Of a stretch of DNA of 64,000 nucleotides, positions 4,167 to 58,454 are shown piece by piece. Position 1 is the first letter of the stretch. The number at the start of each line of letters is the position of its first letter. The translations under genes were made by a program, and so were the position numbers. The stretch is from Emcibacter nanhaiensis (lineage in GTDB: Bacteria; Pseudomonadota; Alphaproteobacteria; Sphingomonadales; Emcibacteraceae). The stretch is from positions 62,001 to 126,000 of the forward strand of contig NZ_VFIY01000010.1 of assembly GCF_006385175.1 (NCBI RefSeq), read 5' to 3'. The notes under the pieces were generated by a model. The model was given only the letters and a program-made list of their open reading frames with translations. It did not search any database and was not told where the DNA came from.

Positions 4167-4862
4167 CTAGACGTAGGACAAGGCTTCCAGAAATCCTTCC
4201 TTGCCGTCCTTGCTGCCCTTTTCCTTGGATTTTTTATCTTTATCGCTGCAAGCATGGGCCTCGGGAGAAATCGGTGGCAACGGCAGGGCGCGGCTGACCG
4301 GCGGCAGTGGCTCAACTTCCGCCGCAGAAGCCGCCCTTGAGCTAAACGAACTTGCCACGCTCTCTGCGTGGGCGGTCGCTGCGGCAGCGATTTTTTCCGC
4401 ATGCAGGCGTTCCGCTTCCCTCACCACCCGGCGAACTTCACGCTCGGCGCGATGAATTTCAAGGGAGATCTCCACCCTCATCTCTTCGCGCAGGGCTTCC
4501 GGAATACGCTCCATCTCCTCGACTTCCGCCAGGGATTCTTCCAGATCGGCCAGGCGATCCTCATGAAGGCTCATGACTTTTTCGACCTGCTCGAGAGTGA
4601 TCTCCACCGACCGCTCCAGTGCAGCCGCACTGCGCTCATCCATAAACTGCCGGGCGTGGAAGACAAAGTCGTCGCCGGCGACCACCTCGACCCGAATGAC
4701 AGGATCAACAGCTTCATTCATGCCGACGAACTCGAAGTCCCTGCGGGTTTCCTTGGTATTCAGCACGGAACCTGCCACAGATGACAGACCACCAACCAGC
4801 AGCATGGCGATGGCCAGGCCGGTCAGTTTTTCCGTCACTGTGATATTCCGTTTTTTCCTCAT
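4167..4862 (-). CDS. Unknown membrane-anchored coiled-coil protein
   Basis: 231 residues; I do not recognise a family. A basic start (MRKKRNITVTEK) is followed by one hydrophobic segment, LTGLAIAMLLVGGLSSVAGSV, a signal anchor or signal peptide. The middle (about residues 75-155) is long, highly charged and heptad-like, rich in E, R and L (LADLEESLAEVEEMERIPEA and onward), consistent with a coiled coil. The C-terminal third is Ala/Ser/Pro-rich and then Lys-rich (DKDKKSKEKGSKDGKE). The protein is probably exported or membrane-tethered with the coiled coil in the periplasm. It is a single-gene unit with its own terminator. Function unknown. Confidence 0.7.
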   Translation of the reverse strand: MRKKRNITVTEKLTGLAIAMLLVGGLSSVAGSVLNTKETRRDFEFVGMNEAVDPVIRVEVVAGDDFVFHARQFMDERSAAALERSVEITLEQVEKVMSLHEDRLADLEESLAEVEEMERIPEALREEMRVEISLEIHRAEREVRRVVREAERLHAEKIAAAATAHAESVASSFSSRAASAAEVEPLPPVSRALPLPPISPEAHACSDKDKKSKEKGSKDGKEGFLEALSYV

Positions 4863-4995: not shown

Positions 4996-6822
4996 TCAGA
5001 AATAGCGGGCCACCCGAAGCTGGATGAAATCGTCCTGCGACAAGCCATAAATGGGGTCGGCCACGGGCACATTCAGGAACAGCCGGGCGTCCAGGCTGAC
5101 CTTCCAGAAGTCGCCGATCCGCCGGCTGCCTTCAATGTTAAGCAGCTTGGCGGAGGTGTTCATGTCGAAGATGGCGCCGACCAGCAGCTCGGTGCTCTGC
5201 TCGTCGTTGGCGGTCCAGCGCAGGCCGACAAACAGGTCGTCCTCAAGGAAACTGGTGGCCAGGTCGCCGCGGTCGTCATAATTGTATTCCACCAGCACGC
5301 CGAGGTCGGAATAGCCGCCGCCGAGGCCATAGAAAGTATATTCCAGGCCGCCGGCAAAGGCCCAGAAGTCATCGCCCCAGGCTGCCGTGCCGTTGTTGGT
5401 CTGGTAAATGCCCTCGAATTTCCACAGGAAGCCGCCGCGGGTCGCCTGGATATCGAAGCCGGTCTGGTGGATCTGGCGATAATAGGGGATCAGCACCATA
5501 TTGCCGGCCCCGTCCAGCCCGAGCATAAATTCGGGATCACGGGCGGTGCCCTGGAAATGATAGAGCCCGAGGTCAAAGTCGCCGATCACATGGGACCAGC
5601 GGATCGCCCAGTCCGGATGCCATTCCTCGTCACCGGACTGATACATCGTCTGGTCATAATCCACCGGCAGCGGCATGCGCAAACGTCCGCCGGCGCCCGG
5701 GAATTTGCGCTCCCGGAAATAGGTCATCAGATAGCCGGAGAAGGTACCCACCTCGGTGGTGTAGCTCAGGCTCAGCATGGGCTGGCCCAGCTTGTCTTCC
5801 TGGTCCACATCCTCAAGGAAGTCATCCTGGTTCAAGATATCCACCAGGTGATTGGATTCGGTGACGCCCCAGAAGACCGTATTGACCCCGGCTGTAACTG
5901 TCAGTTTGTCAAACACGCCCAGCCATTTGAATTCCCGGACGTCGAAATGACTGCGGTCGTCATCCTGGGCGTCCAGGCGGCCGAACAGGTCGGCGACGAA
6001 AATATGGTTGCCGTCTTCGGAGACATATTCCAGCCGCGGCTCCGCCGCCACGGACAGGGTCCAGTCTTCCGGTTCCGGATAGAAGGAGGTCTGGGGATAA
6101 ACCCGGCCCTCGGCCTCCACATAGCCGGAAAAGTCAAACCCGTTATATTCGTCTTCATAGACGGTTTCGTTATATTGTTCCTCGGCCATGGGGGCCATTT
6201 CTGCCGCAAAGGGGGACGGCTCTTCCATGGGCTCCGCTTCCGGCACCGGCTCGGCCACGGGCGCCGGTTCGGCCGGCATCTCCGGAACGGGCTCCGGTTC
6301 CGGGACAGGTTCCGGTTCAGGGGCTGGTGGCTGGCTGGCCAGAACCTGGCGTGACCATTCCGCCTCGCTCACCGGCAACAGGTCGAACACGAGGCGGTGC
6401 GGACGGCCGTCCACTGCCCGCAGGCCGAAGGTGCGCGACACCGTGGCCGGGCGGCGCAGGGTGATTTCGAGACGGAAACTGTCCTCCAGGTTGCGGACCT
6501 CAACGTCCTTCAGCAGGCCCACTGCCTCGGCCCGTTCGGTCAGGGCCGGTGTAATCGGCTCGCCGGCCTTGTCTTTCAGCTCAATGATAATGCGGCGCGG
6601 ACCCTCCAGATAGCTGACCGCATAGGGCGCCTGCTGGCTGAGGTCCACCACAAGACGGGTCATGTCGGGATGTTTGCCGGAACGGACCGCCAGGACTTCC
6701 GCGTCGGCCGTCGTACCGCTAAGGGCGGCCGTCAATGACAGAGCGGCGACAGCGGTGCTGCGGCCCAAACGCCGTTTCAGTACGGCATTTGCTTTTCCGT
6801 TTCCAGTATCGGTCTTGCGCAC
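4996..6822 (-). CDS. Envelope trio 1: AMIN domain fused to an outer-membrane beta-barrel
   Basis: About 608 residues if begun at the GTG at 6822. An ATG at 6900 extends the frame but gives an odd leader and no good ribosome site, whereas the GTG has GGGG six bases upstream and is followed directly by a signal peptide ending near TTADA. Residues about 43-135 (EVLAVRSGKHPDMTRLVVDL, then GPRRIIIELKD, then RPHRLVFDLLP) are an AMIN domain, which in AmiC and PilQ localises proteins to peptidoglycan. A Pro/Glu linker (PEPEPVPEPEPVPEMP) of about 50 residues leads into a barrel of about 380 residues with alternating aromatic strands, the VFWGVTES motif and a C-terminal Phe (RVARYF), as in outer-membrane proteins. 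The barrel resembles the DUF1302-type barrel of trio 2 at 58455-59816. It lies downstream of the LolA-like and RND genes with the same order. Inferred role: outer-membrane end of the RND/LolA-like relay. Confidence 0.75.
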   Translation of the reverse strand: MRKTDTGNGKANAVLKRRLGRSTAVAALSLTAALSGTTADAEVLAVRSGKHPDMTRLVVDLSQQAPYAVSYLEGPRRIIIELKDKAGEPITPALTERAEAVGLLKDVEVRNLEDSFRLEITLRRPATVSRTFGLRAVDGRPHRLVFDLLPVSEAEWSRQVLASQPPAPEPEPVPEPEPVPEMPAEPAPVAEPVPEAEPMEEPSPFAAEMAPMAEEQYNETVYEDEYNGFDFSGYVEAEGRVYPQTSFYPEPEDWTLSVAAEPRLEYVSEDGNHIFVADLFGRLDAQDDDRSHFDVREFKWLGVFDKLTVTAGVNTVFWGVTESNHLVDILNQDDFLEDVDQEDKLGQPMLSLSYTTEVGTFSGYLMTYFRERKFPGAGGRLRMPLPVDYDQTMYQSGDEEWHPDWAIRWSHVIGDFDLGLYHFQGTARDPEFMLGLDGAGNMVLIPYYRQIHQTGFDIQATRGGFLWKFEGIYQTNNGTAAWGDDFWAFAGGLEYTFYGLGGGYSDLGVLVEYNYDDRGDLATSFLEDDLFVGLRWTANDEQSTELLVGAIFDMNTSAKLLNIEGSRRIGDFWKVSLDARLFLNVPVADPIYGLSQDDFIQLRVARYF

Positions 6823-6973
6823 GAATAACCCCGTCTTTTTATCATTGATTCTCGGAAACTTTTGCAGAAACAAATGTAGAAGGAGATAAAAACTCAGCAT
6901 ATTTAAATAGTTCTTTCGAGGTATTTAAATAAACTTGTGAGCTTTCTTCCTCAACCTGCTCAGTTCCTTAAGG

Positions 6974-6992
6974 TTAATCCGGCATTAACCAT
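6974..6992 (+). promoter_or_regulatory. CtrA-type box upstream of trio 1 barrel gene
   Basis: TTAA, seven bases (tccggca), then TTAACCAT: an exact match to the alphaproteobacterial CtrA consensus TTAA-N7-TTAAC. It lies 150 bp upstream of the GTG at 6822, in the 6823-7096 gap, and suggests that the barrel gene has its own cell-cycle-linked promoter besides read-through from the LolA-like gene. The match is seen; binding is inferred. Confidence 0.45.
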
Positions 6993-7096: not shown

Positions 7097-7915
7097 TTAC
7101 TTCGCCGTCTTCATTCGGGACTTGGTAAAGTCGATATCTTCCAGCCCCTGCTGAAAATCATAGCGACTCATGAGCAGGCGTGTGGTTTTACCGGTCAGCT
7201 TGTTAACCATGTAAAGCTCGTGGGCGCGCCAATATTTGTCCAGATATTTCTGGTACTTGCTCATAATCAGGGTTTTGAAGTGAGCCCCGCCGCGATTGAA
7301 AAATTCGATCTTATGGACTCGATATTCATCCGTATCAATCCAGGAAATAATCTTGGTATAGCCGGATCCTTCATAAAGCGGATAGGATTCCACCACATGG
7401 CAGGTCATGCTGCCGCAGGCTTCGTCCCGTAGCCATTTGTAGCTGTATTTCCCCACTTCGCGGGAGGACATGTCCTCGTAGGAAAATTCGCTGCCCATGA
7501 ACGGGCCGGACTTGCTGCGGCTGTCGATGCGCTTGATACGGCCCTTCTGGCCCAGCGCCGGAAAATAAATCCACTGGTCGTCCGGCTCGAGGATCTTGGA
7601 ATGGGTCAGCAGCACAGTACCTTTGACATCCGGCGGCCGGTCGAAAATTACTAGTGATTTGTCGCCCAGATCCCGATCCTCGACCTCGAGGGTTTTGATT
7701 TTGAGATAGCGCATGCTGGTCTTGCCCTGCCTGTTGGTCAGGATCATTTCCAGTTCGGTAACGCTGTCGCCATAGCCCAGATCGCGGCGATCCATTTCTT
7801 CGGCAATCGCCAGTCCTTTTTCTTCCGCTGTCTCGGCCATGGCCGGCGCGGACAGGCCGGGAAGGCCCGCCAGCAAAAGGAGGGAGAGGAAAGCGGCAGC
7901 TTTAGGCATTTGCAT
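7097..7915 (-). CDS. Envelope trio 1: LolA-like outer-membrane lipoprotein-sorting protein
   Basis: About 272 residues. The start chosen is the ATG at 7915 (AGGA ten bases upstream), inside the end of the RND gene, so the two are translationally coupled. A signal peptide (MPKAAAFLSLLLLAGLPGLSAPAMA) is followed by a LolA/LolB-like half-barrel sequence: DSVTELEMILTNRQGKTSMRY, then PPDVKGTVLLTHS, then DDQWIYFPALGQKGRI, then GSEFSYEDMS. These are hallmarks of the 'outer membrane lipoprotein-sorting protein' family (PF17131-like), which are soluble periplasmic lipid carriers usually next to MMPL-type RND permeases. Two cysteines near the middle (ACGSMTC) could form a disulfide. Homologous to 59850-60635. 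Inferred role: it takes a hydrophobic cargo from the RND permease and carries it across the periplasm. Confidence 0.85.
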   Translation of the reverse strand: MQMPKAAAFLSLLLLAGLPGLSAPAMAETAEEKGLAIAEEMDRRDLGYGDSVTELEMILTNRQGKTSMRYLKIKTLEVEDRDLGDKSLVIFDRPPDVKGTVLLTHSKILEPDDQWIYFPALGQKGRIKRIDSRSKSGPFMGSEFSYEDMSSREVGKYSYKWLRDEACGSMTCHVVESYPLYEGSGYTKIISWIDTDEYRVHKIEFFNRGGAHFKTLIMSKYQKYLDKYWRAHELYMVNKLTGKTTRLLMSRYDFQQGLEDIDFTKSRMKTAK

Positions 7916-10223
7916 CTTTTTTCGATCCTTTTTTGTCAACAAACAACAGTATGGTCGGCAGCAGCAGGAAGTCGGTCACCAGCGCCACGGCAATGATCAG
8001 CGCCGTCAGGAGCCCCATCTTCGCATTGATAAGATAGTCGGAGAATCCCAAGGTCACAAATCCACAGATAAGAACCAGCGAAGAGATCCACAAGGGGGAA
8101 CCGACCATGGCAAAAGCGTAGCGTACGGAATCCTCCGGACCCAATCCTTTCTCGAGGCTGCCCCGCCGGTATTTACTGAGAAAATGCACGGTACAATCCA
8201 CAATCAGGCCGAGCGCGGTCGCGGTCACAGCGGAGGCAAAAATCCCCAGCCTGCCGTCAATGATCGCCCAGAGGCCAAAGGCCGCGACAGCCGGCAATAC
8301 GTTGGGTACAATACTGATCAGTCCCAGCCTGAAACTGCGTAGCGCCGCGACCAGGCACAGGGAAATCAGCACAAAGGCCACCCCCGTCCCGACCATCATG
8401 CTGTCAAAGGTCCGGCGGGTCAGGTAAGCAAAGATAATCCCCGGACTGGTGCCGCCCGGCGTCATGATGCGGCCCTCGCCCTGCCGGGCGTCAAACCATT
8501 CCCTGGTCCGCTCTGTCAGCGCCTTCATGTCCGTCGTGTTCACATCGCCCAGGCTTGCCGTCACCCGGGTTGCCGACTTGCCGATATCGATCTGATTGTT
8601 GAGGTCAAGGCCGTAGGGCAAGGACATTTCATAGAGAAGAAGATACTGGGCCGCCAGATTGCGCTCTTCAGGCAATTTATACCAGGCGGGATCATCGCCG
8701 TGCATGTTTTTGTTGAGCCGCTTCATGACATCAACAATGGAGAAGACATGGACCACTTCGGGCTGGGCTTCCAACCAGTCGGTAAATTCCTGCAGTTGCT
8801 TCATATAGTCGGGATTTGCAATCCCGCCTTCCTCTCCGGAGGAGACGGAGAGTTCCATGGTGTAGGGGCCGACCAGGTTATCGAGCATGAACTCGGAGTC
8901 CTTGCGGAATTCAACATTCTTGGAAAAGAAGGAGATGAAATTATCATAATATTCAAGCCGGGGAATGAATGCGGCCACCGCAACACAGGACACGATCATG
9001 CCCACCAGAATGGTGTTGCGCCGCTCAATCACCCACTCCACATAGTTTTCCAGTACGATATGCTCCCGCCTGGTTTCGCCCAGGGGGCCCGTTGGCAAAA
9101 TTGCCAGAAGCGACGGCAGCAGGGTGATGGCGAAAAACCAGGCTGCAAAAACCCCGATGGCCGAAATATTGCCGAGATGGTTGAAAGGCGGACTGTCATT
9201 GAAATTCAGGCTCAGAAACCCGATGGCCGTGGTGACCGAAGTTATGAACACCGGCTGGAAATTGATCCGCAGACTTTCGACAACAGCGTCCTTTTTGGCC
9301 ATGCCGCGCCGCATATGGACGTAGAATGTCGCCAGAAGATGAATAGTGTCAGCCACGGCGATTGTGACAATGATCACCGGCGAGGCGGCTGAAGCAACAT
9401 TGAGATAGAAGCCATAATGCCCGGTCAGACCGAGGGCAAAAAGCACCGAGGAAAAGACCACAACCATGCTGATGACCATGCCGGAGACCGAGCGCAGGAA
9501 GATCAGCAGCGTGAGTGCAATGACTGCGAACATCACGGGAATCAGTGTTTCCGAATCCGCTTCCGACGCTTCAGACATGGACAGCGACATCACCACCGTG
9601 CCCGAAAGGGCAACTTCAACATCCGGATGGTCCTTTTCAATCTGCGCCGCCATGGCGCGGATCGGTGCGACGATCTTCTTCAGGGTATCGGGCTGGGTAT
9701 CGGCAGGCTGGACCGTGACCATGATTTGCGTTGTCCGGCCGTCTTCCGACACCAGCCGGTTGACCAGGGACGGTTCGTTCAAGGCAATAGCGCGGATTTT
9801 TTCCAGATCTGCGTCCGTGAGATCGGCGGCATCCCTGACCAGGTCATCCACATAAAGGTCGTCGCCCTCAGCTTCGGTATGCTGAAAGTTGGTCAGGCTG
9901 TCCACCCGGCTGACGGCTGGAAAGGTCCAGGCCTGCTCGGTCACATCCTTGATGATGCCAAGCATCTGCCGCGAAAAAACGCTCTTTTCAGAGGAATAGA
10001 GGCCGATCGTCACCAAGTCGACTTTGGAATAGTTGGCTTCCAGGTCATCCTGGGTGGCAAGCTGCGGGTTATCCGGGCCGAAAAAAATCCGGTAGTCGGT
10101 ATTAAAGCCCAGCTTGGTTACGCCGGCCCCTACGAGGCCGGCCAACAGGAGGCACAGGAAAGCCACAATCCAGCGCCAGCGGACGATAAACCTGCCATAG
10201 GATATAATATATTTGTCCGACAT
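7902..10223 (-). CDS. Envelope trio 1: MMPL-type RND superfamily transporter
   Basis: 773 residues, inner membrane. Layout is one N-terminal TM (WRWIVAFLCLLLAGLVGAGVTKLGF), a large periplasmic domain, TM2-6 (LTLLIFLRSVSGMVISMVVVF and onward), a second periplasmic domain and TM8-12, the duplicated sterol-sensing/MMPL layout. VADTIHLLATF and TTAIGFLSLNF are family signatures. At about 770 residues it is smaller than HAE1 pumps and matches the HpnN/MmpL lipid-exporter branch. GGGGAG precedes the ATG. It is the first gene of the operon; the 107-bp gap upstream holds its promoter, including an inverted repeat GTCAG-TTGT-CTGAC at 10253-10266 that could be an operator. Cargo unknown; a lipid, hopanoid or lipoprotein-like molecule is inferred from family and partner genes. 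Confidence 0.85.
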   Translation of the reverse strand: MSDKYIISYGRFIVRWRWIVAFLCLLLAGLVGAGVTKLGFNTDYRIFFGPDNPQLATQDDLEANYSKVDLVTIGLYSSEKSVFSRQMLGIIKDVTEQAWTFPAVSRVDSLTNFQHTEAEGDDLYVDDLVRDAADLTDADLEKIRAIALNEPSLVNRLVSEDGRTTQIMVTVQPADTQPDTLKKIVAPIRAMAAQIEKDHPDVEVALSGTVVMSLSMSEASEADSETLIPVMFAVIALTLLIFLRSVSGMVISMVVVFSSVLFALGLTGHYGFYLNVASAASPVIIVTIAVADTIHLLATFYVHMRRGMAKKDAVVESLRINFQPVFITSVTTAIGFLSLNFNDSPPFNHLGNISAIGVFAAWFFAITLLPSLLAILPTGPLGETRREHIVLENYVEWVIERRNTILVGMIVSCVAVAAFIPRLEYYDNFISFFSKNVEFRKDSEFMLDNLVGPYTMELSVSSGEEGGIANPDYMKQLQEFTDWLEAQPEVVHVFSIVDVMKRLNKNMHGDDPAWYKLPEERNLAAQYLLLYEMSLPYGLDLNNQIDIGKSATRVTASLGDVNTTDMKALTERTREWFDARQGEGRIMTPGGTSPGIIFAYLTRRTFDSMMVGTGVAFVLISLCLVAALRSFRLGLISIVPNVLPAVAAFGLWAIIDGRLGIFASAVTATALGLIVDCTVHFLSKYRRGSLEKGLGPEDSVRYAFAMVGSPLWISSLVLICGFVTLGFSDYLINAKMGLLTALIIAVALVTDFLLLPTILLFVDKKGSKKDANA

Positions 10224-10330: not shown

Positions 10331-13300
10331 CTACCATACAATTTTTTCGATACCGTCGAAGGCGACCTCGCCGCCATCATCGAAAACGATGGTGCCGGCA
10401 GAATCGTCGCTAAGCAGCATTTCGCCGGAAGCATTGTCGACGGACTGAATCGAGTCACCATTGTCCAGGGTCAGGGTCCAGCCCTGTTCGGCAGCGCTGC
10501 CGCCAAAGCCGCTCAGCTCGATGGTATCGGTCCAGCCGGCGCCGCCTGAAGCGGTGTCAGACCCGTCATTGGGGCCGAAAATGAACATGTCATTGCCGTC
10601 GCCGCCAAACATGGTGTCGTTACCAGCCCCGCCGGTCAGTGTATCGTCGCCGGTGGAGGTCCAGAGTGTGTCATTACCCTCGCCGCCATCAACGCTCACA
10701 CCCTCGTCATAGGTATATTTGCTGGATGTCATGTCGAGAATATCGTCACCACCACCCATGTGGATTTCCTCGATATTCTGGATACGAGCCTGTTCACCGG
10801 TGGCAAAGTCACTGATGCCGTCATCCAGGAACAGGGCGTCATCGCCATCGGTGCCCTGCAGCACGTCATGACCACTGCCGCCGTCAAACACATCGCTGGA
10901 CCGGTTGTAGCCGCTGAGGGAGACATTTTCGCCCGTTTCCACGTTGTGGGCCGCATAGCCGGACCAGGTACTGTCGGCGTTATATTGCAGCGTATCATCG
11001 CCACCCGCCCCCTGAATATCCTGGGCGCCAGCGGTGCCTTCCAGCATCTGATCGGCGATTTCAACATTGATGGCCTGGGTGGTCGAGGCTGAATCACCAC
11101 CGACCCCATCCGTCGAAGTGGTTGTTACCTGAAGGGCAAAATCGTCAGAACCGGTGGCCGGCTGAACGGTCAAATTGTCCAGATCCCAACCACTGATGTC
11201 CACACTGCCGTTTTCCGCTGTGGCGGTAAAGCTGTTGGCACCGTCACTCAGCACCGCACCCTCGGGAATGGCAGAGATGCTAACCGCCAGGCTTTCTGAT
11301 CCGTCGAAGTCGCCGGCCCCGATGCTAATCCGGGGAAGAGCGCTCGCACTGCCCACATCGGCAGTTACCGATTGCGGCTGGTCCGGTGTGATAGAAACAT
11401 CCACCTGGGTATTGACGTCGGTATAGTCTCCGTCGCCGCCACCATAGAGGTCCTCCCAGTTCTGGTTCCCTGCTGAAGCGGAGTCCGAGAAGTGATCGTA
11501 ACCGTCCGGATTCAGGCTTTGATCGCTGAAATAAGCCGGCGCACTCCTGCCGCTCAGGGGCTGGCCATCCACCATGGGTGTCCAGACGCCGTCGATATTG
11601 TCGAAAGTAACTTGGTCACCGTCGGCAAGAGCAGAATTCTGCCTGTCCCCGTCCGGAATGATAAAGAACCCGAGCGTGACCCCACCTTCATAGTCGGAGG
11701 TGTCAATCGTGACGGTCTTGTCATCGCCATCCTTCACATTGTCCTGAATGATCGCGCCGCCAATCGGGTTGCCGTCCGCATCGGCAACATAAAAGCCGTG
11801 TGAGTTGTTGTACCCGGCGTCGACGCCAAAATAGGAAACGTCAATGCTGATCACGCCGTCAGCGGGAATATCATAGTTCCCGTGGTCCGGATCCAGAACC
11901 AGTGTGCTGGACATCTGCATTTCCGGCACGTCGGCCACAGCCGTCACATCGATGGACGCGGTGGAGGACACGGTCTCGGTACCGTCGGTGACGTCGAAAC
12001 TGACAGGAACCTCATCGCCCGAGAAATCCGCTTTCGGCTCAAATGTCCAGGTACCGTCCCCGTTATCGGAAACTGTCCCGAACGCCGGGTCGACGCTGAC
12101 GCTGCTGACTGACAAGCTGTCGCCATCCACGTCGGACGCGTTGGCAAGAAGCTGATCGGCGCTGAAGGTGATTGAGGTGTCCTCGTTTGTTGCGCCAAGG
12201 TCCACCGAGCCCACCACCGGACCGTCATTGTCCGGCGCCACAGTAAGGGTCACCGTACCGCTGTCGGTCAGGGAGCCGTCGCTCAGAGTATAACTGAAGC
12301 TGTCTTCCCCGTGGAAGTCTTCCGCCGGCGTATAGGTAAATGAGCCGTCAGTTGCGATCTCCACGGCGCCGCCATTTGCGGTTTCGATCGTCTCCGCCAC
12401 CACAGAGAGTGCATCACCGTCGACATCCGTATCGTTAGTCAGGACATTACCCGCAATCGCCTGGTCTTCGGTACCGGCAAAACTGTCCGCCGCCGCGACC
12501 GGGCTCTCATTGACATCGTCAATATTGACCACGAGTTCAGCAGTGTCAGAACCACCATTGCCATCAGACACCTCAATGGTCAGGCTGCGTGAAGCCTGGG
12601 TGTCGTGATCAAGCAGACTGCCATCCGCGACCGTCACTTCACCGCTCTGGGGATCGATGGCAAAGGCGCCATCGTCGTTACCGGCCGTGATGGCATAGGT
12701 CAATGCATCACCGTCGATATCGGTTGCCGAAATGGTCGCCGCTTCCGTACCGTCCGGTGCGCCTTCGGCAACAGACGTTACCAGCTGCGCGCCATCGGAC
12801 AGCACATCCGGCGCCTCTGTGTAGGAAACGGACTTTACCGTAAACTCGGAATTATCGCCGGAGGACTGGCCGGTCGCATCAGTAGCCTCGACCACAATCT
12901 TCGCCACCGGGACATCGCCGGTTTCAAGATCATAGGAGAAACTGCTGCCACTCAGCCTTGTACCGGTTTCGGGGGTCAGGCTACCGCTGGCAATTTCGTT
13001 GCCGTCCGCGTCATAGGCTGTCCATTTGCCCTGCTCTCCGCCGGGAAATTCATTTTCAATCTGGCGATCCGTCACCAGACCAACATCCGTCACCGGATTG
13101 TCAAAGGTCAGCACCAGCTGTTCACTGTTGCCAGTGGCGGGATCATAGTCGATTTGTGTGTCGATGCGCTCGCCCTGGATGCCGATCCCATCCCCGGACG
13201 TCTGCAGTCGTGCCGCACTCCCGTCAGTGGAAAATCCTTCGATTGTCACATTGTCACCAAGCTGCCCGGACCTACCGTCCACATTCAGAACAACTGTATT

Positions 13301-16300
13301 GGTGTCCACGCTTACCGGAGCGTTCCCATCAATCGAGACAGTAATGACCGGAGCATCATTGTCAGCCGTCACTGTCAGGGTAGCTGTCGCCTCTGTAACG
13401 CCGCCGTTACCATCCACCACGTCATAGGTCATGGACAGTTCGCCGTTGAAGTCGGCGCCCGGCTGGAAGGTCCAGCTGCCGTCCGCATTGGGCGCCAGGG
13501 CGCTGTAATCAGCAACCGGCACATCTGACATGTCAAACTGCAGGGAGCCGGACCAGGCCATGGTCTCGCGCCCATCGATCACATCTGAAGAGCGGGCGTA
13601 GCTGGCGTCCTCGGCCTCCAGGGTCACGCCGCCGACAAAGCCGCCGTTACCGTCCTGGGTGCCGCCCACGTTGATCTTGTCGACAATCAGGTTTCTGTCT
13701 TCACCGGCTACACCGTCCCCATCCCTGTCCCCGGTGCCTTCCCAGGCATCATTGACAAAGCGCACATCTATGGAGTCAACTTCGGTGCCCGCAGGCAGAT
13801 CGAAACTGAAATACTCCCAGTCGCCGCGCTCAGCGGTCACATCAAAGCGGGTTTCTCCATTCACCTCAACCAGTTCGCCGTTGACATAGATCTCGAATTC
13901 AGGAGAGCCAACGCCCACATCCTCGACATTGTTCGGATCATAATGGTCGCCGGAAATTTTCAGGGTCACCGGGATATCGGTATCCTGATTCCCGATCCGC
14001 AGGTTTGTTACGGACAGGACATCCCCATCCGCGTCGGAAGCATTCGCCAGCAAGTCTGCGGGCTGAATGACAATGGCTGTGTCTTCCGTAGTAGACAATT
14101 CAGGCGATGCCAACGCATCTACCTGCGGTCCATCATTCACAGCAATCACATCCAGCGAGGCCGTTGTGGACACAAAGTCAGTTCCGTCGGTTACTTCAAA
14201 ATTGAAGGGTACGTCGGTACCATTGAAGTTTTCGGCCGGGGTGAAAGTCCAGGTGCCGTCGCCGTTATCGGTCAGGGAGCCATATTGCTCGTCCACATTT
14301 ACCTCGGTGACCGCCAGAATATCGCCATCGACATCGGACGCATTGGCCAGCAGGTCCTCGGCAGAGAAAGTCATTGACGTATCCTCGTCAATAGCGCCGA
14401 GATCGACCGCTTCCGCGACAGGACCGTCATTGGCGCCGGTCACGGTAATGTCCATGCCGGCCACGTCGCTGCTGCCGTTACCGTCGGACACCTCGAACTC
14501 GAAGCTCACCGCGCGTTCCTCGCCCTCGGCCAGATCATCAAAATCAGTGCCCGGATCAAAGCTGTAGCTACCGTCGGCATTGACGGTGACACTGCCGGAT
14601 TCCGGACCACTGACCAGGCTGTAGGTCACCTCATCACCATCCACGTCGGTAGCGTGGAGCTGGTCATGAAGGATCACATTTTCTCCGGTCACAGCTTCGC
14701 TCTCTGCAGCCACCGGGCCGTCATTGACGGCAATCACATCCAGAGATGCCGTGGAGGAGACAAAATCGGTGCCGTCGGTCACTTCGAAATTGAACGGCAC
14801 ATCGGCGCCATTGAAGTTCTCGGCCGGGGTGAAAGTCCAGGTATCATCCCCGTTGTCAGCAAGCGTCCCGTAGACCGGATCAACAGTCACATCGATCACT
14901 GCCAACACATCACCGTCAAGATCGGAAGCATTGGCCAGGAGATCGTCAGCACTGAAAGTGAGTGACGTATCCTCATCGGTCGCCCCCAGATCAACCGCAC
15001 CAGCCTCGGGAGCATGGTTCGCGGCAACCCCAGGTTCTTCCGCACCTCCCCCGTCAGCCGTGCCGTCTTCACCGGTGGTTTCGTCGCCCGCCAGTATGTC
15101 TTCACCGGCATTGACGGTTTCGCCGTCATCGACCGGCGTCTCTTCCAGATCAGCCACACTCAGTACAAAGTCCCTGCTGACTTCAGCACCGCCGGAATCC
15201 CGCGACGTAACGGTAACCGTTACGCTATCTTCCGCTTCGTGATCCAGGCTTACACCGTCCTTCAGCTTCAGGGAGCCGTCCACCACTTCGAACCGGTCAT
15301 CGCTGACCGTATAGCTGTGGCTGTCGCTCGCATCGGGATCGCTGGTAGACAGGGTGCCGACGGTCGCACCCTCATCATTTTCAAACAGGCTGTTATCGGA
15401 CAGGGCGATATCCACCGGCGCATCATTGTTGCCGGTTATAGTGAGTGTAGCGGTCGCCGTATCGCTTTGCCCGTTGCGGTCGCGCACGGTGTAAGCAATG
15501 GTGACAGTCTCGCTTTCCCCATCGCCAAGGTAATCGTATGAGCTGCCGGGATTGAAAATAACCTTTTGACCGTCATGGGTGACGGCACCGGCGCCCTCTG
15601 CGAGTTCGACACCGGAAATGACGAGCTGCCCGCCGCCCGGGGCCGTGTCGTTGGCCAGGACGTCAAGAGAAACGGTGGCATCTTCATCGCTGTCAAAACT
15701 GTCGTCTTCTGCGACGGGCAGTTCGTTGTCAGCGCCGGTTGTTCCACTGTCTGCCGAAGCATTGTTTTCCGGGGCAGCCTCCTGAGGCGCCTCATCGGAA
15801 GCATCACCTTCTGCACCTTCATTTTCATCAGAAGCAAAAACTTGCTCTTCAGGTACAGCTGGCCGATTTTCAAATTCCGGGGTTGCACCCAAAATTTCTT
15901 CATAAAGTTCGTTGCTGAGCTTGTTGAGCGGCGTCTCGATGGTCGGGGCATTTTCCATGCCTTCCAGATCAAGCGGCGCCGCCGTCGTACCGGAGGAAAA
16001 TGTCGGTTCCTTGCGCGCGCTGTCATCGTCCATGTCAACCTGGGTTTCCTGGGCGGGCTCACCCCTGGAAACCAGGGAACTGACCCTGCTCAGGAACGAA
16101 TGCAGGGGAGAAGGAGCACCCTGTCCTTCTTCCTGTGCGGCCGCCTGGTCGTCAGTGATGCCGTGCTGTTCCGGAAAGCCTGACCCCTCGGTCTGGTCAC
16201 CGCCCAGATGAATGTTGGAGCGCGTATGAGTATCCTGGGTACCCTCGTCACTGTCCTCCCCCATGGAAACGCGGGGACGTTCGGTCTTTTTTACCTGATC

Positions 16301-16375
16301 CGCGCCCTGCAGGACGGGATCCAGTTCGATATCGAAAGCCTTTGAACTGTTATTTCCAGACTCACCAGTGGACAT
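10331..16375 (-). CDS. Giant Ca-binding cadherin/VCBS-like repeat protein with RTX-type C-terminus
   Basis: 2014 residues, very acidic, no Sec signal; the predicted substrate of the divergent type I system. The N-terminal ~200 residues are low-complexity and acidic. From about residue 220 come repeats with the EDxxxxxxxxDLLANASDxDGD and NDGP signatures (cadherin/tandem-95 and VCBS-like), three of them near-identical. About residues 795-910 resemble a Ca-dependent xylan-binding module (FEIYVNGELVEVNG, then WEYFSFDLP, then EDRNLIVDKINVGG). About 1490-1640 (GFYVADADGNPIGGAIIQDN, then LGFFIIPDG) resemble DUF4114. The last ~200 residues hold RTX-type nonapeptides (GGAGNDTMFGGDGNDMF) and the typical C-terminal secretion region ending DGIEKIVW. 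Likely a secreted or surface adhesin for biofilm or polysaccharide attachment. The upstream gap is shared with the secretion operon. Confidence 0.88.
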   Translation of the reverse strand: MSTGESGNNSSKAFDIELDPVLQGADQVKKTERPRVSMGEDSDEGTQDTHTRSNIHLGGDQTEGSGFPEQHGITDDQAAAQEEGQGAPSPLHSFLSRVSSLVSRGEPAQETQVDMDDDSARKEPTFSSGTTAAPLDLEGMENAPTIETPLNKLSNELYEEILGATPEFENRPAVPEEQVFASDENEGAEGDASDEAPQEAAPENNASADSGTTGADNELPVAEDDSFDSDEDATVSLDVLANDTAPGGGQLVISGVELAEGAGAVTHDGQKVIFNPGSSYDYLGDGESETVTIAYTVRDRNGQSDTATATLTITGNNDAPVDIALSDNSLFENDEGATVGTLSTSDPDASDSHSYTVSDDRFEVVDGSLKLKDGVSLDHEAEDSVTVTVTSRDSGGAEVSRDFVLSVADLEETPVDDGETVNAGEDILAGDETTGEDGTADGGGAEEPGVAANHAPEAGAVDLGATDEDTSLTFSADDLLANASDLDGDVLAVIDVTVDPVYGTLADNGDDTWTFTPAENFNGADVPFNFEVTDGTDFVSSTASLDVIAVNDGPVAAESEAVTGENVILHDQLHATDVDGDEVTYSLVSGPESGSVTVNADGSYSFDPGTDFDDLAEGEERAVSFEFEVSDGNGSSDVAGMDITVTGANDGPVAEAVDLGAIDEDTSMTFSAEDLLANASDVDGDILAVTEVNVDEQYGSLTDNGDGTWTFTPAENFNGTDVPFNFEVTDGTDFVSTTASLDVIAVNDGPQVDALASPELSTTEDTAIVIQPADLLANASDADGDVLSVTNLRIGNQDTDIPVTLKISGDHYDPNNVEDVGVGSPEFEIYVNGELVEVNGETRFDVTAERGDWEYFSFDLPAGTEVDSIDVRFVNDAWEGTGDRDGDGVAGEDRNLIVDKINVGGTQDGNGGFVGGVTLEAEDASYARSSDVIDGRETMAWSGSLQFDMSDVPVADYSALAPNADGSWTFQPGADFNGELSMTYDVVDGNGGVTEATATLTVTADNDAPVITVSIDGNAPVSVDTNTVVLNVDGRSGQLGDNVTIEGFSTDGSAARLQTSGDGIGIQGERIDTQIDYDPATGNSEQLVLTFDNPVTDVGLVTDRQIENEFPGGEQGKWTAYDADGNEIASGSLTPETGTRLSGSSFSYDLETGDVPVAKIVVEATDATGQSSGDNSEFTVKSVSYTEAPDVLSDGAQLVTSVAEGAPDGTEAATISATDIDGDALTYAITAGNDDGAFAIDPQSGEVTVADGSLLDHDTQASRSLTIEVSDGNGGSDTAELVVNIDDVNESPVAAADSFAGTEDQAIAGNVLTNDTDVDGDALSVVAETIETANGGAVEIATDGSFTYTPAEDFHGEDSFSYTLSDGSLTDSGTVTLTVAPDNDGPVVGSVDLGATNEDTSITFSADQLLANASDVDGDSLSVSSVSVDPAFGTVSDNGDGTWTFEPKADFSGDEVPVSFDVTDGTETVSSTASIDVTAVADVPEMQMSSTLVLDPDHGNYDIPADGVISIDVSYFGVDAGYNNSHGFYVADADGNPIGGAIIQDNVKDGDDKTVTIDTSDYEGGVTLGFFIIPDGDRQNSALADGDQVTFDNIDGVWTPMVDGQPLSGRSAPAYFSDQSLNPDGYDHFSDSASAGNQNWEDLYGGGDGDYTDVNTQVDVSITPDQPQSVTADVGSASALPRISIGAGDFDGSESLAVSISAIPEGAVLSDGANSFTATAENGSVDISGWDLDNLTVQPATGSDDFALQVTTTSTDGVGGDSASTTQAINVEIADQMLEGTAGAQDIQGAGGDDTLQYNADSTWSGYAAHNVETGENVSLSGYNRSSDVFDGGSGHDVLQGTDGDDALFLDDGISDFATGEQARIQNIEEIHMGGGDDILDMTSSKYTYDEGVSVDGGEGNDTLWTSTGDDTLTGGAGNDTMFGGDGNDMFIFGPNDGSDTASGGAGWTDTIELSGFGGSAAEQGWTLTLDNGDSIQSVDNASGEMLLSDDSAGTIVFDDGGEVAFDGIEKIVW
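11936..12209 (-). repeat. Cadherin-like repeat unit C of the giant adhesin
   Basis: Encodes the block from DLGATNEDTSITFSADQLLA to SSTASIDVTAV, a diverged copy of units A and B further upstream in the protein. Boundaries are approximate and set by the conserved EDTS and TDGTE motifs. Confidence 0.7.
14127..14413 (-). repeat. Cadherin-like repeat unit B of the giant adhesin
   Basis: Encodes AVDLGAIDEDTSMTFSAEDL through STTASLDVIAVNDGP. DNA runs such as 'tcggccggggtgaaagtcca' are shared exactly with unit A about 580 bp away, so the copies are recent or homogenised and could recombine. Confidence 0.75.
14714..14999 (-). repeat. Cadherin-like repeat unit A of the giant adhesin
   Basis: Encodes AVDLGATDEDTSLTFSADDL through SSTASLDVIAVNDGP. 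It is near-identical in protein and largely identical in DNA to unit B; a VCBS-like unit (GENVILHDQLHATDVDGDEV) separates them. Confidence 0.75.
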
Positions 16376-16683: not shown

Positions 16684-18477
16684 ATGAAATCCGGTTTCCT
16701 CCGGGCACCCCAGGTTTCAGTTATTGTCCCGCGGTTAACCATAAAAGTTGTATTGTTTATGATAAAAAGCGCAGATAGTACCGGCAATAAACTGGACTCG
16801 ATGGGGTTCATGCCCATCCTCAGAAAAGACATCCTGACAGCATCTCTGGTGCTGAATGCCCTCTCCCTGGCATTACCGATGGTCCTGCTGCAGGTTTACG
16901 ACCGGATTATTCCCAATGCGGCCCTGAATACCCTCAGCCTGTTGATCCTTGGTCTTTTGGGCGTCCTTCTCATCGATATTCTGTTGCGCACCGCCCGGGC
17001 CTACCTGGCCGGCTGGATCGGCGCCAAATATGAACATGACATGGGTTGCCGGGCCCTGGAACGGATCCTCGGTTCACGGCTGCAGGATCTGGAAAAAATC
17101 TCCTCCGGCGTTCATCTCGACAGGTTCGGCGCCATTGACTCCGTTCGCGACTTTTATGCCAGCCAGGCAGGCCTGACCCTGGTGGACCTGCCTTTTGTGT
17201 TTCTGTTCCTGGGCCTGCTGGGGGTCATCGGCGGTTACCTGCTGATCGTGCCGGTGTGCCTGCTGATTATCCTCGGCGCCATCGCTTTTACACTGGGTGT
17301 ACGGCTCAAGGACGCCATCGAAAAAGACGCCATCTGGGAGGATCGCCGATACAGCTTTATTATCGAAGTGCTGGGCGGCATCCATTCGGTCAAGAGCATG
17401 GCCATGGAACATCTTATGGACCGCAGGTACGAGAAGCTGCTCGAAAGCTGCTCTGCCGCGAGCTACAATGTGATATTCCTGAACGGCCTCGCCCAGGGGA
17501 TTGGCAATATTTTCTCGCAGATCACCATGATCGCGGTCGCCAGCATCGGCAGCCTGCTGGTGATCAGCGGCGATATCACCATGGGGGCTCTGGCCGCCAG
17601 CACCCTGCTGGCCGGACGTACCGTTCAACCCCTGTTGCGCGCTCTGAGCATCTGGACCCGGTTCCAGCATATTCAGATCGCCCAGGACAAGCTTGCCGCC
17701 ATTGACGGCCTGCAGCCGGAACGAACACAGGAAGTTTCCGACATTGACCGGATCAACTCCATCGAACTGAAGAACCTGTCCTTCAGCTACAGCAAAGATA
17801 TGCCCCCCATACTACGCGAGGTGAATCTCAAGGTGGAAAGCGGTCAGGTTGTGGGGATTCGCGGCGGCAACGGCTCCGGTAAATCCACCCTTCTGTGGGC
17901 CCTCATGGCGGGCCTCGAGCCCCAGGAAGGAAAAATCCTGGTCAACGGCAAGGATCCCGCCCGGTTCTCTACAGAAAGTCTGCGCCAGCGTATTGCCTAC
18001 CTGCCTCAGCGGCCGATCATGTTCCAGGGCACGATCCTGGACAACCTGACCATGTTCCGCGGCGATGAGCATATTGACGATGCCCTGAATGTCGCCGAAT
18101 TACTGCATCTGGACAGCATTCTCGCCCGAATGCCCGACGGCTATGAAACCCGCATCGGCGACGGAGCGCAAAATGAACTGCCCGCCGGGATCGCCCAGAG
18201 GATTGCCATCGCCCGCACCCTGGCCAGCGAACCGGATGTCATCCTGTTTGACGAAGCCAACTCCGGTCTCGACAACAAGTCCGACGAAGACCTGTACAGA
18301 CTGATGAGCGGTCTCAAGGGCACTTGCACCATGGTGCTGGTCAGCTACCGGCCGTCCCTGCTCAAACTGGCTGACAAGCTGTATGACCTGAAAAACGGCA
18401 CGCTCACAGCTGTCGGTCCAAATAACAGCAAACCGAAAAGCACAAAAGCACCCGGCAAGGGAGGGGAAAGCGCATGA
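16684..18477 (+). CDS. Type I secretion ABC transporter subunit 1 (degenerate H-loop)
   Basis: 597 residues; inner-membrane half-transporter with about six TM segments then an ATPase. No N-terminal C39-like domain. The start at 16684 has AGGA three bases upstream; ATG at 16759 (MIKSADST) would give a more usual N-terminus but lacks a site. Walker A GGNGSGKST is near residue 395 and Walker B VILFDEANSGLD near 523. The signature position reads LPAGIAQR instead of LSGGQ, and the H-loop His is Tyr (VLVSYRPS, about 553). It overlaps the second ABC gene by 4 bp (ATGA). Altered motifs plus a neighbouring second ABC gene suggest a heterodimer with unequal ATP sites, exporting the giant repeat protein. 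Confidence 0.88.
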   Translation: MKSGFLRAPQVSVIVPRLTIKVVLFMIKSADSTGNKLDSMGFMPILRKDILTASLVLNALSLALPMVLLQVYDRIIPNAALNTLSLLILGLLGVLLIDILLRTARAYLAGWIGAKYEHDMGCRALERILGSRLQDLEKISSGVHLDRFGAIDSVRDFYASQAGLTLVDLPFVFLFLGLLGVIGGYLLIVPVCLLIILGAIAFTLGVRLKDAIEKDAIWEDRRYSFIIEVLGGIHSVKSMAMEHLMDRRYEKLLESCSAASYNVIFLNGLAQGIGNIFSQITMIAVASIGSLLVISGDITMGALAASTLLAGRTVQPLLRALSIWTRFQHIQIAQDKLAAIDGLQPERTQEVSDIDRINSIELKNLSFSYSKDMPPILREVNLKVESGQVVGIRGGNGSGKSTLLWALMAGLEPQEGKILVNGKDPARFSTESLRQRIAYLPQRPIMFQGTILDNLTMFRGDEHIDDALNVAELLHLDSILARMPDGYETRIGDGAQNELPAGIAQRIAIARTLASEPDVILFDEANSGLDNKSDEDLYRLMSGLKGTCTMVLVSYRPSLLKLADKLYDLKNGTLTAVGPNNSKPKSTKAPGKGGESA

Positions 18478-20741
18478 GCGATACACCTCCTATTGATCCT
18501 ACGAACATAGAATTTGACAAGGTTCCCACCAACAAGGGACCGGCCCGGGATATGATTGACTCGCTCAATGACCGGTTCCGGGATTCCGTCAGCCTGAAGG
18601 TGACCAAAGCCGACCAGCTTGCCGAGGCGCTGCAGTCAGGACAGATCGGTTCGTTTCATGCCTCATCGGATTATGCCGCCTGCCTGCTGCCGCTGTTGCA
18701 GGCGCTCGGCTGGCGCGGACAATTGCGTCGGTTGTTTGAGTCCCTGCCCCATTTCGCTGACGGACTGGAACTGACCGAATTCCGCAATACCCTGGCAAAC
18801 CTGCACTATAGAACCGATCCGGTGCAGGTTGAACTGGCCTCCATTGATCCGCGCCTGTTCCCCTGCCTGTTTGTCCAGAACGACAAGCCCATCGTCATTC
18901 TGTCCAGGGACCGCGAGGGCATTCGTTATTTTGACAGTGCCGACCAGCAGGAAAAGCTCACCGACGGCCGGAAGCAGGTCGGCACCGCCTATTTCATTTC
19001 GACAAAACACGGCACCCAGACCAACAAGCTGGACGAGGACCTGGCACCGGCAAACTGGGTCAAGGACCTGTTCCTGCGGTTCAAGGGCACCATCAAGCAG
19101 ATGTTCGCCATGACACTGATGCTGAACCTGTTTGCCCTGCTGGTGCCGCTGTTTATTATGGCCATCTACGATCAGGTGATTCCGTCCCAGTCCGGCATGT
19201 CACTGGTTTACCTCCTGTCCGGCATCACCCTGGCAATCTGCTGTGAAATAGGCCTCCGGATCCTGCGTGCACGCCAGACGGCCTATCTGGGCGCCCGGGT
19301 GGAAAATATTGTCGCCAATGCCACGTTCCAGAAACTCCTGTCCCTGTCGCCGATGATGACGGAATCTGCCCCCATCGGCAGCCAGGTGTCCCGCCTCAAG
19401 GAATTCGACGCCATCAAGGGCCTGTTTTCCAGTACTCTGGTCAATGTTATCCTTGAGCTGCCGTTTGTGGTCCTGTTCCTGGCCCTGATCGCCATCCTGG
19501 GCGGCACCCTGGCCTATATTCCCATCGCCATGATGGGGATCTTCGGCCTTGTCGCCATGATCATGATCCCCGCCATGAAACGCAATGTGGCGTCTTCAAG
19601 CCGGGCCCGCGCCCGCCGTCACAGTTTCCTGGTGGAGGCCCTGTCCAACCTCAGGACCATCAAGCAGACCGCGGCCGAAAACCCCTGGCTGGACAGATAC
19701 CGCAACCTGTCGGCGGAAACGGCCTATACCCATTTCCGCTCCGCCCAGGTTTCCCTGCTGCTGCAGAGCCTGGCCCAAGCCATTATGATGGGCGCCGGTA
19801 TCGCCACTGTCGGTTTCGGCGTGCTGAAAGTAATTGACGGCAACATGACCGTTGGTGCCCTGATCGCCTGCATGGCCCTGGTCTGGCGGGTGCTCTCCCC
19901 GCTGCAGAGCCTGTTTCTGACCCTGAGCCGGCTGGAGCAGACCCTGAACAGCATCAAGCAGATCAACCAGTTGATGAAAATCCCGTCCGAGGACGACCTT
20001 CTGCCGAACAGCCTGACCCAGAGGACCTTTGCCGGCAACCTGGTCATGGACCGGACCAGCTTCCGCTACAAGGCGGATGCTGAACCTGCCCTGCTGGGTG
20101 CCGGGTTCCGCCTCAATGCCGGTGAAATGATGGCCATCATGGGACCCAACGCCGCCGGCAAGTCGACCATCCTGAAACTTCTGATCGCCATGCACAAACC
20201 GCAGGCCGGGCAGATTATCCTGGACGGCATGGATATCCGCCAGATCAATCCGGCGATCCTGCGCCAGTCCATCGCCTATGTGCCGCAGCAGAGCCACTTC
20301 TTCCACGGCACCATCGCCCAGAACCTGCGCCTGGCCCAGCCGATGGCTTCGCTGGTGGACTTGGAGGAAGCCTGCTGGATGGCCAACGTCCTGGATGAAG
20401 TTCTCGCCCTGCCGCAGGGATTCGAGACCCGGATCGGTGACCAGTCCATTCAAAGTCTGCCGTCCAGTTTCAAACAACGCCTGTCGCTGGCCCGGGCCTT
20501 CCTGAAACGGGCAAATATCATGCTTCTGGATGAACCGGCCAAAACCCTGGATTATGAAGGCGACCAGGCCTTCATGAGAACGCTCGCCACCCTGAAAGGC
20601 AGTTGCACCATCATTATGGTGTCGCATCGACCGAGCCATATCAAAATGGCCGACAAGGTGCTGGTGCTTGAGGACGGCCTTGTAAAGAATTTCGGTCCGC
20701 CGCAGTCCATTTTCCCGGAAACAGCGCCGCAGACCGCATAG
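18474..20741 (+). CDS. Type I secretion ABC transporter subunit 2 with C39-like domain (LapB-like)
   Basis: 755 residues. Residues about 45-190 form an inactive C39-peptidase-like domain (SSDYAACLLPLLQALGWRG, then DNDKP-like strand QNDKPIVILSRDREGIRYFD), which in LapB/HlyB-type exporters holds the substrate; no complete Cys-His catalytic pair is apparent. Six TM segments follow from about 215, then an ATPase with Walker A GPNAAGKST near 556, signature region SLPSSFKQRLSLARAF, Walker B IMLLDEPAKTLD near 684 and a normal H-loop His (IIMVSHRPSH) near 718. It starts within the stop of subunit 1 and is followed 22 bp later by the HlyD adaptor. Probable partner of subunit 1 in one export complex. 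Confidence 0.9.
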   Translation: MSDTPPIDPTNIEFDKVPTNKGPARDMIDSLNDRFRDSVSLKVTKADQLAEALQSGQIGSFHASSDYAACLLPLLQALGWRGQLRRLFESLPHFADGLELTEFRNTLANLHYRTDPVQVELASIDPRLFPCLFVQNDKPIVILSRDREGIRYFDSADQQEKLTDGRKQVGTAYFISTKHGTQTNKLDEDLAPANWVKDLFLRFKGTIKQMFAMTLMLNLFALLVPLFIMAIYDQVIPSQSGMSLVYLLSGITLAICCEIGLRILRARQTAYLGARVENIVANATFQKLLSLSPMMTESAPIGSQVSRLKEFDAIKGLFSSTLVNVILELPFVVLFLALIAILGGTLAYIPIAMMGIFGLVAMIMIPAMKRNVASSSRARARRHSFLVEALSNLRTIKQTAAENPWLDRYRNLSAETAYTHFRSAQVSLLLQSLAQAIMMGAGIATVGFGVLKVIDGNMTVGALIACMALVWRVLSPLQSLFLTLSRLEQTLNSIKQINQLMKIPSEDDLLPNSLTQRTFAGNLVMDRTSFRYKADAEPALLGAGFRLNAGEMMAIMGPNAAGKSTILKLLIAMHKPQAGQIILDGMDIRQINPAILRQSIAYVPQQSHFFHGTIAQNLRLAQPMASLVDLEEACWMANVLDEVLALPQGFETRIGDQSIQSLPSSFKQRLSLARAFLKRANIMLLDEPAKTLDYEGDQAFMRTLATLKGSCTIIMVSHRPSHIKMADKVLVLEDGLVKNFGPPQSIFPETAPQTA

Positions 20742-20763
20742 CAGCCAGAGAAAAGGCAATAAG

Positions 20764-58304: not shown

Positions 58305-58454
58305 ATTCTCCTGTGCAGGGTGTCCCTCAAACCCTTGCATCACTAGTATGTGACCAACTTAAAGCAGTAGTTCCTAACTTTTTATGAATAAACCGCACTG
58401 CAAAACATATTGCATTTTTCTTATATTATAAATACTTACCGCAGATGCGAAGAA

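Follow-up and report, generated by a model that had tools for sequence, protein, structure and literature searches.

The locus raises the question of why an outer-membrane channel should carry a putative wall-binding module ahead of its barrel, and what such a channel might transport. The channel gene lies at 4999-6822 on the minus strand of the window (the whole 64 kb stretch of DNA analysed), with a GTG start at 6822 and a TGA stop at 4996-4998, and encodes a product of 608 residues with the following parts:

6700-6822, minus strand: signal peptide, residues 1-41, with a helix at 9-33 in the model; sequence VRKTDTGNGKANAVLKRRLGRSTAVAALSLTAALSGTTADA followed by EV
6373-6696, minus strand: AMIN domain, residues 43-150, with Pfam PF11741 and the AmiC and PilQ AMIN folds as best matches
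6142-6333, minus strand: Pro/Glu-rich linker, residues 164-227, recognized by composition and low model confidence
4999-6141, minus strand: outer-membrane beta-barrel, residues 228-608, with a C-terminal F, assigned from the AlphaFold2 model, the OprD/Occ and AlgE folds and a conserved barrel family

The signal peptide is presumably cleaved after ADA, and a short helix (residues 153-163) lies between the AMIN domain and the linker.

The AMIN assignment, first made in an earlier note on this DNA, was borne out by profile and fold, which were concordant, so that the domain is not a by-eye call only. Residues 50-135 matched Pfam PF11741 with 29.5 bits (gathering score 20.5, E 7.9e-7), and the domain search gave no non-AMIN family. 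When the region was modelled separately (mean pLDDT 80.1), the closest fold was that of E. coli AmiC (4bin; Z 13.7, rmsd 3.3, 110 residues aligned), followed by PilQ AMIN structures (Z 9.5-11.5); small heat-shock and CS folds ranked below these (Z ≤7.7). The protein itself is not an AmiC amidase, since it has no Pfam amidase domain and the AmiC model NF038267 covered residues 13-155 alone, with 30.9 bits against a cut-off of 700. One other AMIN protein in the host genome, a 406-aa frame, scored over the cut-off and was taken for AmiC from its length and from its AMIN-only match, as in the AmiC-like genes of the class.

The long Pro/Glu linker and the non-secretin barrel described in the same note were also found. 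The linker has 18 Pro and 17 Glu in 64 residues, would span about 22 nm when fully extended, and was modelled with pLDDT below 50 across residues 194-225. The AlphaFold2 model of the whole protein, built from 46 sequences, had a mean pLDDT of 80.4, and the predicted fold of the barrel (228-608) was nearest to the OprD/Occ porins and the alginate exporter AlgE (Z about 22-24; AlgE 22.9). The OprD/Occ and AlgE families have 18 strands. Despite the common predicted fold, no Pfam family, those of OprD and AlgE included, matched residues 228-608 at E ≤1. Three other identities were rejected because the Pfam search at E ≤1 gave 1) no secretin domain, 2) no plug or TonB_dep_Rec domain of a TonB receptor, and 3) no SLH domain of an SLH-porin (OmpM). 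Conservation of the barrel, judged from one alignment of 23 sequences and another of 46, is highest at residues 282-349 (5776-5979, minus strand), where charged and polar residues abound and many positions are invariant; this stretch may form the pore lining and determine the substrate.

Two genes lie upstream of the channel gene on the same strand:

7097-7942, minus strand: LolA-like periplasmic carrier (PF17131, 190.5 bits), which adjoins the barrel gene in most relatives
7902-10223, minus strand: MMPL/HAE3-like RND inner-membrane transporter (PF03176, 122.4 bits)

Among the NCBIfam families listed, TIGR00921 (HAE3) gave the pump its highest score, 148.6 bits, which is under the cut-off of 351.9; the match of the carrier to DUF1329 in Pfam was likewise sub-threshold (16.1 bits). 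The fixed order MMPL, LolA-like, barrel recurs in relatives. Of 80 named loci from a GTDB genome collection, 71 had sufficient flanking sequence for the LolA-like gene, and 63 of these have it upstream of the barrel; for the MMPL gene the figure is 53 of 64. The exceptions include loci in which the pump is elsewhere or was undetected. A TetR-type regulator directly precedes the pump in three of eight neighbour-listed loci (3 of the 10 neighbour proteins scanned), which fits, without proving, a response to a hydrophobic compound; the ten neighbour proteins otherwise gave no clue to the substrate. No characterized member that could be linked by sequence to these MMPL/LolA-like/barrel systems was found in the literature, a point against the explanation favoured below.

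Several other genes lie close by. The MMPL gene is preceded, at about 0.1 kb, by the gene of a 2014-aa cadherin/Ig-repeat protein with RTX repeats (10331-16375, minus strand); matches to the N-terminal 400 residues of this protein recur by the cassette in several relatives from the order, and its repeats are generic. Divergent from it are two ABC transporters and an HlyD-type protein of type I secretion (16684-22197, plus strand). On the other side, between the channel gene and a ComM-like gene, is a 231-aa ORF (4167-4862, minus strand) with no Pfam match over the cut-off; when 40 other loci were compared, L062 alone had a relative.

The barrel is the outer-membrane member of a widespread MMPL/LolA-like/barrel cassette and probably belongs to a hydrophobe or lipid exporter, as the pump and carrier suggest. 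The explanation we favour, with a confidence a little better than even, is that the window encodes a wall-anchored outer-membrane channel of a three-part export path for a hydrophobe or lipid, likely concentrated where the cell divides and at its poles. It is built on the observed architecture and gene cassette, the predicted folds, and the order-wide fusion and recurrence of wall-binding heads described below, from which we infer that the three proteins share one pathway, that transport is outward and the substrate hydrophobic, and that this AMIN copy binds peptidoglycan and is placed at the septum or poles. The HAE3-like pump would move cargo at the inner membrane, the LolA-like carrier would take it through the periplasm, and the OprD/AlgE-like barrel would let the lipid or other hydrophobe out via the outer membrane. 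The AMIN domain, on its flexible Pro/Glu linker, would bind peptidoglycan poor in stem peptides and so hold the channel at the wall, with enrichment most likely at the division site and poles.

The closest functional precedent is AmeABCD of Castellaniella defragrans, an HAE3 RND system with outer-membrane and LolA-superfamily periplasmic partners that raises monoterpene tolerance by hydrophobe efflux; the same report states that the HAE3 pumps of studied role move hopanoids, outward (PMC6394551). However, the periplasmic protein of AmeABCD belongs to DUF1329 and its outer-membrane protein to DUF1302, whereas our carrier matches PF17131 and our barrel has no DUF1302 match, and the available text mentions no wall-binding head for AmeA.

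A precedent for the head is PilQ of type IVa pili, in which AMIN also precedes an outer-membrane pore. In one report, the AMIN of PilQ pulled down with peptidoglycan and was required to position the pilus machine at midcell and at the poles, and AMIN, SPOR and LysM are named there as binders of the denuded, stem-peptide-poor wall that is made at division and retained at poles (PMC5285504). A second source agrees on the role of PilQ AMIN but records an exception that counts against the favoured explanation, namely that in coccoid Neisseria AMIN does not confer polar placement (PMC10653833). Our channel differs from PilQ in that it has an OprD/AlgE-like barrel and no secretin domain, and in that its gene partners code for an MMPL pump and a LolA-like carrier.

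Across the class, 157 of 289 genomes had some match, the listed ones being barrel-only or AMIN-only (AmiC-like) alignments, and AMIN and barrel in one frame were found only in the window and in genome G027 (locus L088), where a contig end leaves half an AMIN ahead of the barrel; N-terminal sequences were inspected in the fetched loci rather than for every match. In the order of the window, 73 of the 99 genomes searched had a match, and the full-length fusion was present in 14 of the 98 other genomes, spanning five families. Thirteen of these align over AMIN and barrel as one piece and G295 as two pieces of one frame, while four further fusions (G354, G339, G363, G360) are cut by contig ends. 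The AMIN domain of the order's fusions has invariant R, G, P and D positions. The spread over five families indicates an old, kept feature of the order, not an accident of one genome. Most barrel relatives are headless, which counts against the favoured explanation and implies that the head is dispensable for transport.

In genome G312, the headed channel (L064, 6425-9256) accompanies a LolA-like gene with no adjacent MMPL gene, and a complete headless cassette (L099) is found elsewhere in the same genome.

Heads of other kinds were found on the same barrel. Among the named relatives, SPOR heads were present on L116 (Thiohalobacter thiocyanaticus, 44.2 bits), L121 (36.3 bits) and L127 (52.9 bits), with a cut-off of 21, and all nine SPOR-like headed proteins scanned were over it. 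FimV_core was over its cut-off in nine of the 11 LysM-like headed proteins scanned, and AMIN heads were found in two gammaproteobacteria, L113 (Haliea sp. MAG, 36.8 bits) and L198 (33.6 bits). A gammaproteobacterial survey, made with a barrel-only profile as query, gave a barrel match in 125 of 368 genomes. Ten of its 12 ORFs of at least 500 aa bore a head. Seven of the heads were SPOR, of which six were scanned and passed the cut-off while the seventh, on L189, nearly duplicates that of L127; one was AMIN; and two were of LysM/FimV type, L184 passing the cut-off of 43.45 and L199 scoring 29.6. The two ORFs without a head, L216 and L217, have their extra length within the barrel. In one gammaproteobacterial family the barrel occurred in 50 of 98 genomes, and all ten barrel ORFs of at least 500 aa had a FimV-type LysM head; nine exceeded 43.45, the FimV_core threshold in NCBIfam, and L202 scored 43.4, and with the Pfam LysM model only L203 reached the cut-off (21.0 against 20.9).

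A phylum survey found the barrel in 50 of 398 genomes at E ≤1e-10, some of the matches being weak, with one ORF over 500 aa, L183, whose extension had no known domain, and another, L214, that resembles read-through. The extensions of L183, L208 and L111 had no Pfam match, and no SLH head was matched in the headed-barrel proteins scanned. L191, L194, L200, L201, L212 and L214 were rejected as headed, since by eye their extensions resemble upstream sequence read in frame, and were left out of the head counts. The OprD family, taken as a comparison for long ORFs, was uninformative: it gave ten matches in seven of 229 genomes, and its single ORF over 500 aa resembles read-through.

AMIN, SPOR and LysM have all been reported on denuded wall, so the common property of the heads found is the type of wall bound. 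Their recurrence is the best evidence that the head may address or anchor the channel to the wall. The proposal of the earlier note that the pore is pinned to the wall by its head thereby gains strong, if indirect, support, as independent lineages appear to have put AMIN, SPOR or LysM/FimV on the same barrel. No description of such heads on this barrel was found in the open-licence literature, and what would surprise specialists is that three types of head are interchanged on a single exporter-linked barrel.

A tree of 137 barrels suggested how often heads were gained. The head labels required at least ten changes, five for AMIN, three for SPOR and two for LysM/FimV. AU tests on a subset of 41 rows rejected the grouping of all AMIN-headed barrels in one clade (p 1.2e-7), whereas single clades of SPOR heads (p 0.13) and of LysM/FimV heads (p 0.39) were not rejected, which weakens the favoured explanation; these p-values are optimistic because the subset was picked after the large tree was inspected. 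Several acquisitions of three different head types would be a cautious reading. Seventeen near copies had been removed before the tree was built, L069 among them, and L102 and L103 are near copies of L066 and L067. Some labels need qualification: 1) those of L062-L074 and L076 as AMIN come from the alignment, not from individual Pfam scans, 2) L069 was labelled as having no head, its N-terminus being interrupted by unknown bases, 3) L088, whose 5' end is cut, had no Pfam match and was called AMIN from an in-house profile (E 8e-8; shuffled controls at least 0.15), 4) the AMIN of L077 scored 16.5 bits, below the Pfam cut-off of 20.5, and 5) L198 was over the Pfam cut-off, yet had E 0.13 with the in-house profile. 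In the same tree the barrel of L174 (8001-9122; Emcibacteraceae MAG OFTM144) groups, with full support, with Nitrospinaceae sequences from OFTM MAGs of the same series, by either recent transfer or MAG contamination.

The wall-binding modules could simply tether the outer membrane, which counts against the favoured explanation. The chief role of the head would then be mechanical, joining the outer membrane to peptidoglycan as in the SLH-porins (OmpM), with location and transport secondary. The Foldseek matches of the channel barrel include OmpM1, OmpM likewise combines a wall-binding head with a porin-type barrel, and one report describes SLH-headed porins as tethers of outer membranes and OmpM as both a tether and a nutrient uptake channel (PMC10628300). 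We nevertheless consider this reading unlikely. The heads of the channel family are AMIN, SPOR or LysM/FimV rather than SLH, the fusion belongs to a dedicated MMPL/LolA-like cassette, and the host genome has just one barrel of this family. Moreover, SPOR and FimV-type LysM are reported as septal or polar targeting modules and not as general tethers (PMC5285504), and FimV_core bears the name 'polar landmark'.

The direction of transport could also be the reverse, the barrel admitting long-chain hydrocarbons or lipids while the MMPL and LolA-like proteins aid assembly or inward movement. Such a role was proposed by the authors of a Thalassolituus study, who interpret a similar pair as serving alkane uptake: TOL_3187, which combines MMPL and LolA-like parts, was up 42-fold on n-C28 alkane, and the adjoining porin TOL_3188 was detected only on that substrate (PMC6304351). 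TOL_3187 is, however, one fused protein, and a fused MMPL-LolA-like ORF occurred in none of the 157 loci scanned (L062-L218), so that it is at most a possible homologue of the window cassette. The outward transport by HAE3 pumps of studied function noted above (PMC6394551) also argues against uptake, which we regard as rather improbable. Very doubtful is the notion of a non-functional AMIN region, left over from an AmiC-type gene that became fused to the barrel and lacking any wall binding, for although the region resembles AmiC-type AMIN domains, including that of the host's own AmiC-like gene, and weak members such as L077 exist, AMIN has been kept over five families with its invariant residues and unrelated wall-binding heads occupy the same place in other lineages.

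Under the favoured explanation, that of a wall-anchored hydrophobe exporter, the channel joins other known architectures. The earlier note had held that AMIN is known mainly from PilQ and AmiC; this needs qualification, since PMC6434023 already records AMIN on a non-secretin barrel among the architectures of TonB-dependent transporters. Those transporters differ from our channel, which has no plug or TonB_dep_Rec match and has another barrel family and other gene partners. AMIN-headed secretins, AMIN-headed TonB receptors and SLH-headed porins are thus already known, and AMIN on this barrel would add a further wall-anchored outer-membrane channel. The channel bears on where lipids and hydrophobes leave Gram-negative cells, and on how new outer membrane at septum and poles is supplied with its contents. 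The acquisition of three kinds of wall-binding head by one family of pores is a natural experiment on spatially addressed hydrophobe export, and the cassette offers an entry to the function of MMPL/LolA-like/barrel systems. The different heads on relatives of the pore suggest that cells choose the surface site of export.

Between the channel gene and the LolA-like gene lies a gap of 274 bp, in which the CtrA-type box reported in the earlier note was present:

6973-6989, both strands: palindromic CtrA-like box TTAA-N7-TTAAC, upstream of the AMIN-barrel gene

The 64 kb window has no TTAA-N7-TTAA site other than the one at 6974-6988 (0.29 expected). In the 14 corresponding gaps of the order's fusions, GGTTAA was present in 12 (shuffle mean 2.71) and TTAA-N7-TTAA in seven (shuffle mean 0.71), neither count being reached in any of 500 shuffles, although the gaps come from related sequences and the counts are not independent. 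Genome-wide, the full CtrA-like box occurred 45 times against 28 for a reversed control, a modest excess that leaves the regulatory claim weak; CtrA control of the channel gene is possible, judging from sequence, and GcrA is present in the host genome. The promoter/terminator scan of the window gave no terminator before the channel gene on the coding strand; in relatives a hairpin and T run were seen by eye at the same place.

A more general proposal, which we put forward only tentatively, is that these channels form a widespread class of hydrophobe or lipid exporters with exchangeable wall-binding 'address labels' (AMIN, SPOR and FimV-type LysM), gained several times, that would confine discharge of the cargo to the poles and the site of division. 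In the order of the window, discharge could possibly be tied to the cell cycle by the CtrA-type element separating the headed channel from the pump operon.

Farther along the window, the region 56067-58343 (minus strand) encodes an Amt-histidine kinase fusion, in which an ammonium transporter domain is joined to HisKA and HATPase domains.
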